Of a stretch of DNA of 42,463 nucleotides, positions 2,473-33,485 are shown in pieces (the stretch's first letter is position 1; each line of letters begins with the position of its first letter). This DNA comes from Gammaproteobacteria bacterium. Its GTDB lineage: Bacteria > Pseudomonadota > Gammaproteobacteria > Pseudomonadales > Azotimanducaceae. The notes beneath the pieces were generated by a model. It made no database searches and was not told where the DNA came from. It saw nothing but the letters and a program-made list of their open reading frames with translations. A program made the translations under genes and the position numbers. The stretch covers positions 1 to 42,463 of the forward strand of contig VYFT01000083.1 of assembly GCA_009842245.1 (NCBI GenBank), given 5' to 3'.

Positions 2473-3636
2473 TTGAACACGAACTCAGACAGTAGCTCAA
2501 ACAACAAAAAACGAGTCTATGGGATTGCTATTTCAATCTCTTTAGTTGTTGGTATCTTTGGTGCGACCGCAGGCTACCTATTCGGAAATATGACCAAAAC
2601 AGCCGTTATTGAAATCCCGTTACCAACTCCCACGACATCTCAGGAAACCTTTGAGTGGAAGATGGTCACGACTTGGCCCAAAAACTTACCGGCCATAGGA
2701 GTCGCGCCGGAGAGATTTGCTGAATTGGTCGAAACCATGTCAAATGGTCGATTGACCATTAAGGTTTACGGCGCGAACGAACTCGTCGGCGCACGGGAAG
2801 TGTTTGATGCGGTATCAAACGGAGCCGCGCAAATGGGACATGGAGCAGCATATTACTGGGAGGGCAAGGCACCAGCCGCGGTACTATTCACTACGGTTCC
2901 CTTTGGCATGACCGCACAGGAAATGAATGCTTGGATTTCTTATGGAGGTGGATTAGAGTTGTGGCGTGAACTCTATGAGCCATTCAACGTTATCCCGATG
3001 GCGTGCGGCAACTCAGGAGTACAAATGGGTGGTTGGTTCAACGTCGAAATCAATACTCTAGCCGATCTCAGGGGGCTCGTCATGCGTATTCCCGGATTGG
3101 CAGGTGAAGTGATGCAACGAGCTGGTGCAGCGCCAACGACAATGCCCGCATCCGAACTCTACACGGCCTTACAAAGCGGCACAATTGATGCAACCGAGTG
3201 GGTTGGTCCGTACAACGACTTAGCGTTAGGTTTTCATGACATCGCCAAGTACTACTACTACCCTGGGTGGCACGAACCCGGTGCTACTATCGAGCTCATT
3301 GTCAATGAGGAAGCGTTCGTACAATTACCTGACGATTTGCAGACGATCGTCGAAGTAGCTTCGCGCGCAATCAACCAAGATATGCTTGATGAATTTATGG
3401 CGCGCAACAACGCGGCACTTAAAACTCTTGTGGAAGAACACAATGTTGAATTGCGTCGCTTGCCCGACGAAGTTTTGCAGAGATTGAAGGAACTTTCCAT
3501 GGAAGTCATGGACGAACTTGCTAATAAAGATCCAATGGCTAAAAGAATAGTAACTTCTTATCGTGAATTTCAATCCGAAGTCAGTCAATGGACCGCAATT
3601 GCCGAAGAAGCCTACCTACGCGCGCGTGACCTTTAA
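2473..3636 (+). CDS. TRAP transporter substrate-binding protein, TakP-like
   Basis: Extracytoplasmic solute receptor of a TRAP transporter, which delivers an organic acid to the DctQ/DctM permease. The TTG start follows a perfect AGGAGG at 2458-2463, nine bases away. Residues about 17-42 form one hydrophobic segment (signal peptide or membrane anchor), then comes a DctP fold with FEWKMVTTWPK near the start of the mature domain, GVQMGGWF, MRIPGL and ATEWVGPYND. These resemble the family of TakP, which binds 2-oxoacids, so a pyruvate-like ligand is plausible but not shown. The 387-residue length fits. The lipoprotein gene that follows starts inside its last codons. The permease genes lie nearby but point the other way. 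Confidence 0.88.
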   Translation: MNTNSDSSSNNKKRVYGIAISISLVVGIFGATAGYLFGNMTKTAVIEIPLPTPTTSQETFEWKMVTTWPKNLPAIGVAPERFAELVETMSNGRLTIKVYGANELVGAREVFDAVSNGAAQMGHGAAYYWEGKAPAAVLFTTVPFGMTAQEMNAWISYGGGLELWRELYEPFNVIPMACGNSGVQMGGWFNVEINTLADLRGLVMRIPGLAGEVMQRAGAAPTTMPASELYTALQSGTIDATEWVGPYNDLALGFHDIAKYYYYPGWHEPGATIELIVNEEAFVQLPDDLQTIVEVASRAINQDMLDEFMARNNAALKTLVEEHNVELRRLPDEVLQRLKELSMEVMDELANKDPMAKRIVTSYREFQSEVSQWTAIAEEAYLRARDL

Positions 3637-29244: not shown

Positions 29245-29371
29245 GTCACTTTGGGAAATTTTGGTTAGCTGCGCTAAACGGAAAACGTACAATTCTCGGT
29301 GCAAATACGGCTATAGGACAAACGTGGTCACCGACTAAGTTTGACTCGCCGTTCAATTAGAGGAGAAATTC

Positions 29372-29590
29372 TTGAACGTCAAAATTAAATATTGCACTTC
29401 CTGAGGCTACGAACCAAAAGCGGCTAGTTTAGCTGCTAAGTTTGAGCAACAACTCAATGCAACTGTAAAGATTATTCCTGGTGGTGGCGGGATTTTTGAT
29501 GTCACTGTTGATGGGAAGCTAGTGTATTCCAAACATCAAACCGGCGAATTTCCAAACGAAGATCAGCTGATCAATAGCCTGACGAACTAA
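29372..29590 (+). CDS. SelW/Rdx-family selenoprotein (in-frame TGA = selenocysteine)
   Basis: A 72-residue thioredoxin-like redox protein of the SelT/SelW/SelH (Rdx) family. An AGGAG at 29361-29365 precedes a TTG start by six bases. The reading frame MNVKIKYCTS-TGA-GYEPKAASLA continues through the TGA at 29402-29404 to a TAA at 29588. Read as selenocysteine, it gives the CxxU motif (Cys8, Sec11) exactly where SelW proteins have CxxU or CxxC. The downstream part matches the family: a helix, then VKIIPGGGGIFDVTVDGKLVYSK and GEFPNEDQL. A stem-loop with the layout of a bacterial SECIS follows the TGA. Conventional gene calling would miss or truncate it. The Sec machinery genes are not in the window. 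Confidence 0.9.
29419..29437 (+). promoter_or_regulatory. bacterial SECIS element in the SelW-like gene
   Basis: AGCGGCTA (29419-29426) pairs with TAGCTGCT (29430-29437) over eight base pairs including one G-U, with a three-base loop GTT starting with G. The stem begins 14 bases after the TGA and the loop 22 bases after it, in the range known for bacterial SECIS elements, which need a G at the start of a small apical loop. Confidence 0.8.
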
Positions 29591-29636: not shown

Positions 29637-30431
29637 TCAATTCTCCTTGGACTGCCAGAATGGTGTACCGATGACCGGCGTCGAAGCGACGGCGGTTTCC
29701 CTTTCTGCAATCGCGCCCGCTAGGTACGCCAATCTTCCCGAAATTGACGCATGGTGCATCGCTACTGCCATCTGTGCTGGGTCGTCGCAACGAGCAATGG
29801 ATGTGTTGAGTAGCACGCCGTCGAACCCTAATTCCATGACTTGGGCGACGTGAGAAGGCAAGCCAATACCGGCATCGACCACTAGGTTGACATCCGTTAG
29901 CCGCTCCCGCAGAGTCTTTAACGCATAGGGATTTAGTATGCCTTTACCAGTGCCGATGGGTGAGCCCCAAGGCATGATCACTTGACAACCCAAGTCCTTT
30001 AAACGCTTACAGACTACTAGATCTTCGGTCGTGTACGCAAAGACGTTGAAACCTTGCTTTTGTAGCTCCTCAGTAGCGACAAGCAGTTCTAACGTGTTTG
30101 GTTGGAGGTTGTAATCATCGCCAGTAATCTCAAGCTTGATCCAATTTGTCTCGAAGAGCTCACGAGCCATCTGTGCTAGCGTAATTGCTTCCTTGGCGTT
30201 GCGGCATCCGGCAGTGTTTGGTAGGATGTGCCGACCCAATGCTTGGAGTTGTTTCCACCAGGTCTCACCTCCACCCGTCGCGGGCGCTTGGCGTCGTAAG
30301 CTGGTTGTCAATACTTGGGCGTTGGATGCCTCAACAGCAGCTTTCATGATGGAAGGAGACGGATATTGCGCGGTCCCAAGGAATAGTCGGCTCTGCAATG
30401 TGACGTCGTAGACTTGCCAGGAGTCGTCCAT
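29637..30431 (-). CDS. thiG: thiazole synthase ThiG
   Basis: Forms the thiazole phosphate carboxylate of thiamin from deoxyxylulose 5-phosphate, dehydroglycine and ThiS-thiocarboxylate. The 264 residues show the family blocks LPNTAGCRNAKEAI, WIKLEITGD (with the Schiff-base Lys), MPWGSPIGTGKGILNPY, VVDAGIGLPSHVAQVMELG and VLLNTSIARCDDP. It lies three bases after thiS and is the last gene of thiC-thiO-thiS-thiG. No thiF (ThiS adenylyltransferase) is in the window. Confidence 0.96.
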   Translation of the reverse strand: MDDSWQVYDVTLQSRLFLGTAQYPSPSIMKAAVEASNAQVLTTSLRRQAPATGGGETWWKQLQALGRHILPNTAGCRNAKEAITLAQMARELFETNWIKLEITGDDYNLQPNTLELLVATEELQKQGFNVFAYTTEDLVVCKRLKDLGCQVIMPWGSPIGTGKGILNPYALKTLRERLTDVNLVVDAGIGLPSHVAQVMELGFDGVLLNTSIARCDDPAQMAVAMHHASISGRLAYLAGAIAERETAVASTPVIGTPFWQSKEN

Positions 30432-30434
30432 CGG

Positions 30435-30632
30435 TTAACCTCCAAACATCGCTGAAAGGACATCCAAAGTGTCGTTTTCTTCGACAATGCAATCCGCCCA
30501 TTGCGTGCGTGAAACGAACTCTAAATTGCGTGCGACAACAACGTCATCCGGCTGATATCCAAGCTGGTCCAATATGTCGCACAAATTTGAAGCTTCCACA
30601 TCGACGTGTTCCCCGTTGACTAAGATTCGCAT
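30435..30632 (-). CDS. thiS: sulfur carrier protein ThiS
   Basis: Ubiquitin-like carrier whose C-terminal Gly-Gly is adenylated and thiocarboxylated to supply sulfur for the thiazole. The 65-residue product starts MRILVNGEHVDVEA and ends in FGG. It overlaps thiO by 13 bases and precedes thiG. Confidence 0.95.
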   Translation of the reverse strand: MRILVNGEHVDVEASNLCDILDQLGYQPDDVVVARNLEFVSRTQWADCIVEENDTLDVLSAMFGG

Positions 30633-31597
30633 CTTTGTTCAACCAACGCTGTCGCTTGTCGTACTATTGCAGGTGCGACGGCAAAACCGCACCGGTACAA
30701 CCCGTTAACTCTTAGTACGTGGTCGTCCCAATAGACTCTAGGGTTGTTATCCGGATAAGCGGGGCGCAGTGCGCTCGAAAGTTCTGTAATCTCTGCTTCT
30801 TCGAAGCCACTGCTGATTACGAATGCTGTGGACAAGAGCTCTAGAGCACTCCTTACAGTTACGTTGCCCTCATATTCACTCTCAATTTGTGTTGCACCAA
30901 TCACATATTGGTGATTGGGGCGTGGCGCGACATAGAGCGGATATTTCGGATGCAATAGACGTATAGGTCGCTGCAAATTTACGCCAGGTGCGTATATTCG
31001 CAATATCTCTCCTCGAACTCCTCGTATATCTGGGTCGTCCGAGCCAGCTCCGCGACAATCTATGATGAGGTCACCATTTAGATCTTTGAGTTCGACAGGG
31101 GTTTCGTAGGAGATCGATCCACACACTTGTTCCAGAGACCGAAGCAATGCTCGATTATCAAGCCACCCCTCGCCTTCTAAAAATACACCATGTTGGAAGT
31201 GAGAGGCAAGATCCGGTTCTAGAGTTCTGAGTTCATCTTGATTGAGGATGCGAACACCTGGCACTTCTCGGCGTTCCATTACTCTGATGAACTGCTTCAG
31301 AAGAGCGCCGTCGTTGGGGTGAGCAGTAACAATCGAACCATCTAGGGCATAAGGTACATTGAGTTCTGTGAGCCAAGCTGGCCAAAGTTCCAAGCTCTTT
31401 TTCGCGAGACTAAGGATTATTGCTTCAGATTCTGTCCGCTCGCTCGGAGCAGCAAGAATTGCCGCGGCTACGTGTGCCGCACTCAACGGCTGATCCGCCC
31501 GCGCACGTTCAAACAGTTGGACCTGCGCACCCTGTTGGGTGTAATGCCAACCGAGCAATCGACCTAAGAGTCCAGCTCCAGCAATAGCGACACGCAA
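30620..31597 (-). CDS. thiO: glycine oxidase ThiO (FAD-dependent)
   Basis: Flavoenzyme that oxidises glycine to the imine used for thiazole synthesis under aerobic conditions. The TTG at 31597 gives 325 residues starting directly with the FAD-binding Rossmann motif RVAIAGAGLLGRLLG, five bases after the thiC stop. A longer in-frame start at 31678 would overlap thiC by 77 bases with non-family sequence, so I rejected it. Other family marks are HVAAAILAAPSERTES near residue 45, a second FAD motif region (DLIIDCRGAGSDDP) and the C-terminal GLYRCGFAVAPAIV. Its position between thiC and thiS supports the assignment over other D-amino-acid oxidases. Confidence 0.9.
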   Translation of the reverse strand: MRVAIAGAGLLGRLLGWHYTQQGAQVQLFERARADQPLSAAHVAAAILAAPSERTESEAIILSLAKKSLELWPAWLTELNVPYALDGSIVTAHPNDGALLKQFIRVMERREVPGVRILNQDELRTLEPDLASHFQHGVFLEGEGWLDNRALLRSLEQVCGSISYETPVELKDLNGDLIIDCRGAGSDDPDIRGVRGEILRIYAPGVNLQRPIRLLHPKYPLYVAPRPNHQYVIGATQIESEYEGNVTVRSALELLSTAFVISSGFEEAEITELSSALRPAYPDNNPRVYWDDHVLRVNGLYRCGFAVAPAIVRQATALVEQRCES

Positions 31598-31601
31598 ACA
31601 C

Positions 31602-33485
<1,884 letters not shown>

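Follow-up and report, generated by a model that had tools for sequence, protein, structure and literature searches.

A short reading frame in a gammaproteobacterial draft genome (83 contigs, 2.58 Mb, 94.3% complete) is interrupted by an in-frame TGA, and the question that it raises is whether this codon ends a broken gene, is read as an ordinary amino acid, or is decoded as selenocysteine (Sec) in a small redox protein. The frame lies in the window, i.e. the whole stretch of 42,463 nucleotides that was analysed. The frame itself, its protein family, the machinery genes of the genome and the conservation of both the TGA and the RNA element behind it are read directly from sequence, and together they make it almost certain that this is a functional SelW-like (Rdx, CxxU) selenoprotein gene whose UGA would be decoded as Sec via SelB and a hairpin. 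The features are collected in Table 1.

Table 1. Features of the selW-like locus (window coordinates) and of other loci of the host genome, G000 (contig or locus coordinates).
Feature	Position	Strand	Detail
selW-like CDS	29372..29590	+	TTG start to TAA stop; 72 residues, predicted Sec at residue 11
Shine-Dalgarno-like AGGAG	29361..29365	+	6 bases ahead of TTG 29372
In-frame TGA, predicted to be read as selenocysteine	29402..29404	+	codon 11; TGA in 73/73 host-family members
CxxU redox motif, Cys8-Thr-Ser-Sec11	29393..29404	+	from sequence and alignment
Bacterial SECIS-type hairpin	29419..29437	+	8-bp stem; conserved 7-bp core 29420-29436; loop GUU 29427-29429
selD candidate, Ndh-SelD fusion	G000:C43, locus L092:10866-13037	-	723 residues, no internal stop
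Two tandem AhpC-TSA/redoxin genes with in-frame TGA	G000:C82:2247-2249 and 3186-3188, locus L183	-	one TGA each

The preliminary description had the frame running from a TTG with an AGGAG site through one TGA to a TAA, with a 72-residue SelW/Rdx-type product, and every one of these elements is in place; the TGA is the sole internal stop, and the terminator occupies 29588-29590. With the TGA taken as Sec, the product matches the Pfam domain PF10262 (Rdx) at E 2.5e-20, scoring 72.9 bits where the cut-off is 22.6, and, among the NCBIfam SelT/W/H models, exceeds the cut-off of TIGR02174 (64.1 bits against 34.2). The internal TGA also falls, as had been proposed, at the second redox position of CxxC/CxxU, so that by domain and motif the gene encodes a full-length Rdx protein with CxxU. 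A start codon (ATG, GTG or TTG) occupies the same place in 69 of the 73 selW genes of the host's family; three have an ATG one codon earlier and one has neither.

Thiamine genes adjoin the selW-like gene on the minus strand (thiG, a ThiO-like FAD oxidase and thiC by Pfam, 29637-33485), and no link between them and it was seen. Clustering of the reading frames around 123 loci gave no conserved neighbourhood for the window's gene, its neighbours being in none of the 18 largest clusters listed; the largest cluster is the antisense frame of selW itself. A phage origin was considered and rejected, the phage collection holding no similar DNA.

Orthologs were sought in 195 genomes comprising the host's own and those of its genus, family and order. 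Any Rdx match was present in 86 of these, and the 73 selW carriers with a TGA all belong to the host's taxonomic family, its own genome included. Each of the 73 genes contains a single internal TGA, always at the codon aligned with Sec, and its frame stays open after it, which excludes chance or sequencing error; homologs in close relatives that end at the TGA, which would have spoken for a stop, were looked for and none does. Rdx proteins from 12 genomes in other families of the order have no stops and carry CxxC in all 12. It could still be argued that the TGA is a true stop in what was a Cys-type Rdx gene, now decayed or wrongly assembled, since decay does happen: genome G054 holds a selW remnant (locus L097, G054:C12:25655-25849, minus strand) with several stops and no CxxU motif. 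Against the 73 family members that share both the TGA at one codon and a conserved protein downstream of it, however, this argument is already contradicted, and its probability is negligible. The comparison thus provides the strong evidence that the TGA of the selW-like gene is real.

The host genus has the gene in 17 of 18 genomes, the host's own included, and G003 gave no selW match in the ortholog search. Two of the 73 carriers, G020 and G033, have an additional, separate CxxC-type Rdx gene. A wider scan of genome contigs found 420 relative-encoding loci among at least 593 stretches, of which the best 80 of the 420 were kept, some of them on the same contigs as in the 195-genome search; TGA stands at the matched place in 79 of these best 80, a count that includes L178, whose TGA is present and whose motif, read separately, has His replacing Tyr. 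The lone non-TGA locus of the 80, L165, has CKPC in the matched copy, which is directly preceded by a TGA copy with CREU. This tandem arrangement of SelW-like genes (L165:4761-5210, Myxococcales bin HKST-UBA33), the first CxxU and the second CxxC, is a natural Sec/Cys pair. Titles among the wider-scan matches listed include Planctomycetota, Acidobacteria, Chloroflexi, Myxococcales and Deltaproteobacteria, and the nearest named relatives among the matches listed are gammaproteobacterial metagenome bins such as SB0661_bin_12, presumably sponge-associated; a literature search by title found no paper on selenoproteins of sponge symbionts.

The stem-loop with a G-starting three-base loop that had been reported at bacterial SECIS distance is borne out, and is accompanied by compensatory change and by freezing of synonymous codons. 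The loop G, base 29427, lies 23 bases past the last base of the TGA. A 52-base piece with the hairpin has a folding energy of -17.3 kcal/mol (z -2.64 relative to shuffles), and the fold of a 41-base piece by itself does not stand out (z -0.66 relative to shuffles). In a gap-free alignment of the 48 bases from the TGA in 68 distinct host-family sequences, a stem of 7 bp closing a three-base loop that begins with GU is paired in 98.1% of 476 cells, and RNAalifold independently predicts six of the seven core pairs. Two-sided changes occur in three of the seven core pairs (16 cells against a shuffled mean of 2.0), and of the 68 sequences 65 can pair codons 17 and 21 through their third bases, where 10,000 shuffles average 50.1 and none reaches 65; the rows behind these figures include close relatives and the shuffles are uncorrected for shared descent, so the argument for the hairpin rests on the freezing of synonymous codons and on the variety of pair types.

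Those codons also bear on the proposal that the hairpin is a by-product of a conserved protein sequence (AxSLA) and no SECIS element, for which it can be said that the peptide is well conserved and that four of the seven core pairs are without two-sided change. Within the hairpin, however, synonymous sites are frozen or covary: Ser19, in the loop, is AGT in all 69 rows with serine (the remaining four rows have Gly or Arg), whereas in the rest of the gene AGT accounts for only 24 of 269 serine codons, and Val18 is GTC in 54 of 55. The neighbouring codons Ala22 and Pro15, in contrast, use all four possibilities. Uneven codons are found outside the hairpin too, few in number (e.g. Gly12, GGC in 22 of 26), and codon choice is most strongly frozen inside it. 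Sliding the pairing partner by one to three columns moreover lowers pairing to 17-45%, and we regard a by-product as extremely improbable. Across 120 distinct sequences, those of the wider set among them, neither the loop G nor the loop U varies. The UGA is thus soon followed by a stem-loop whose small apical loop contains a G, as in a bacterial SECIS element, the G-in-loop feature being taken from the available part of the Sargasso Sea survey (PMC1088965). An Rfam search of the region returned two sub-threshold matches only, both judged to be chance. When a SelW SECIS model (R1) was applied to 150 of 534 first-look candidates in the host's own genome, the window's copy alone had a good score (61 bits), and the next two hits had E values of 4.5 and 7.2.

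Synthesis of Sec by this organism had been implied by the gene and left to a search of the genome, which appears to hold the whole set. selA (540 bits) and selB (396 bits) lie side by side on contig C17, the encoded SelB having its C-terminal winged-helix domain, and contig C43 carries a tRNA-Sec (67.4 bits, anticodon tca). The selD candidate is an Ndh-SelD fusion, a type described in the portion of the GOS paper available to us (PMC2398784). It passes TIGR00476 (selD) at about 260-263 bits against a cut-off of 125. Ranked by E-value, the NCBIfam model that it matches best is TIGR04369 (fusion_not_SelD), with 436 bits, under the cut-off of 700. Among solved structures, those closest to the SelD part are selenide, water dikinases (E 7.3e-39 and 9e-36). 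The GC..K of the E. coli SelD N-terminal motif, which we take to be its essential Cys and Lys, aligns with GC..K in the fusion, whose motif MRCGGCASKLG has Cys, not Sec. Because no other gene of the draft genome exceeds the TIGR00476 cut-off, the fusion is likely the host's SelD; selA, selB, selC and selD would thus all be represented, the last by a fusion with a sub-threshold resemblance to TIGR04369 as well. In G003, a member of the host genus, and in several genera besides (G027, G031 and G092, for example) the tRNA-Sec gene lies within a few kb of selA, but it is found elsewhere in other genomes of the host genus (e.g. G000, G002, G006, G015); to judge from these positions, selC seems to have moved.

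The frame would be open whichever residue were inserted, so that UGA might in principle stand for Trp, Cys or some other ordinary residue through reassignment or leaky read-through. TGA terminates 10 of the 32 main genes of the window, however, and therefore the code is not reassigned; the genome has the Sec machinery genes, the codon corresponds to the second Cys of CxxC in the 12 Rdx proteins from the order's other families, and a SECIS-type element follows it. An ordinary residue is accordingly very improbable, and decoding as Sec remains the preferred reading.

It also fits the distribution of the gene. With thresholds of E at most 1e-60 for selA and 1e-9 for tRNA-Sec, one or the other was found in 70 of the 73 selW carriers (both in 63) against 42 of the 122 genomes without selW (Fisher p 2.4e-19, uncorrected for descent). 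The three carriers with neither, G063, G093 and G104, are incomplete assemblies (73, 87 and 81% complete). selW thus tracks the Sec machinery, and machinery in genomes without selW suggests other selenoproteins there. G054, with its decayed selW, still has selA and tRNA-Sec.

Further selenoproteins are probable in the host itself, to judge from the tandem AhpC-TSA redoxins of contig C82, which have the UxxC motifs WUGSC and WUPFC and a putative signal peptide judged by eye. The TGA is followed by a hairpin whose loop contains AGUU, clearly in one copy and weakly in the other; R1 failed to recover the hairpins of these genes in the own genome. There are 39 AhpC-TSA matches in this 2.6 Mb genome (contigs C12, C63, C55, C13 and others), many of them tandem inside frames some 400-820 residues long, so that thioredoxin-like proteins are unusually expanded here. 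A search of the own genome for GRDB gave no match, but its control was likewise matched nowhere, so that this negative carries no weight; a search of the own draft genome for CMD/AhpD also gave no match. Sec formate dehydrogenase is the most widespread selenoprotein of bacteria. Two molybdopterin oxidoreductases were matched in the own genome, both free of stops, and on this sole basis, in a draft 94% complete, a Sec formate dehydrogenase appears to be absent. The chances seem evenly balanced that the host genus keeps its Sec system for a small, redox-only selenoproteome (SelW and the tandem pair of UxxC redoxins, whose signal peptides are putative) without Sec formate dehydrogenase, the SelW branch of the host family staying Sec (73/73) and Cys swaps occurring only outside it.

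The mechanism that these features suggest is the usual bacterial one, with the SECIS inside the coding region: SelD would make selenophosphate and SelA would convert the charged tRNA; the hairpin just 3' of the UGA would be bound during translation by SelB carrying Sec-tRNA(Sec), and the UGA would be decoded as selenocysteine rather than as a stop. The 72-residue product would adopt the Rdx (thioredoxin-like) fold, with Cys8 and Sec11 as a thiol-selenol redox pair, and would most likely act as a small cytosolic reductase.

A 72-residue gene with a stop codon inside it is thus real, strictly conserved and tied to the Sec machinery in a gammaproteobacterial lineage. Gene callers can miss short genes with an in-frame TGA, and the clean RNA-level signature found here, a frozen AGT loop codon with covarying synonymous sites, is an aid to finding them; knowledge of SelW or of Sec decoding is unchanged by the present gene. 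Among known systems, NF041051 (SelTWH_Campy) is the best NCBIfam match of the product (E 7.2e-24, 83.8 bits), yet the score is just below that model's cut-off of 88. The solved relatives, MIEN1/C17orf37 (2ljk, E 2.1e-9) and animal selenoprotein W (2npb, E 1.7e-6), share sequence similarity with it and are both eukaryotic; selenoproteins of eukaryotes have their SECIS in the 3' untranslated region, outside the coding frame. A 2006 bacterial survey, in its available part, describes a SelW-like family with few or no Cys homologs in Sec-using organisms. As the preliminary description had recognized, the family is not new: SelW-like selenoproteins of prokaryotes figure in the Sargasso Sea (PMC1088965) and GOS (PMC2398784) surveys, and, as far as the available text of these extends, they have in common with the present gene the SelW family, CxxU, an in-frame UGA, a G in the small apical loop of a hairpin and a marine bacterial distribution, with no substantive difference found. 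The present copy is that of a particular gammaproteobacterial draft genome and its family, and it belongs to a selenoprotein family already known and common in the sea.
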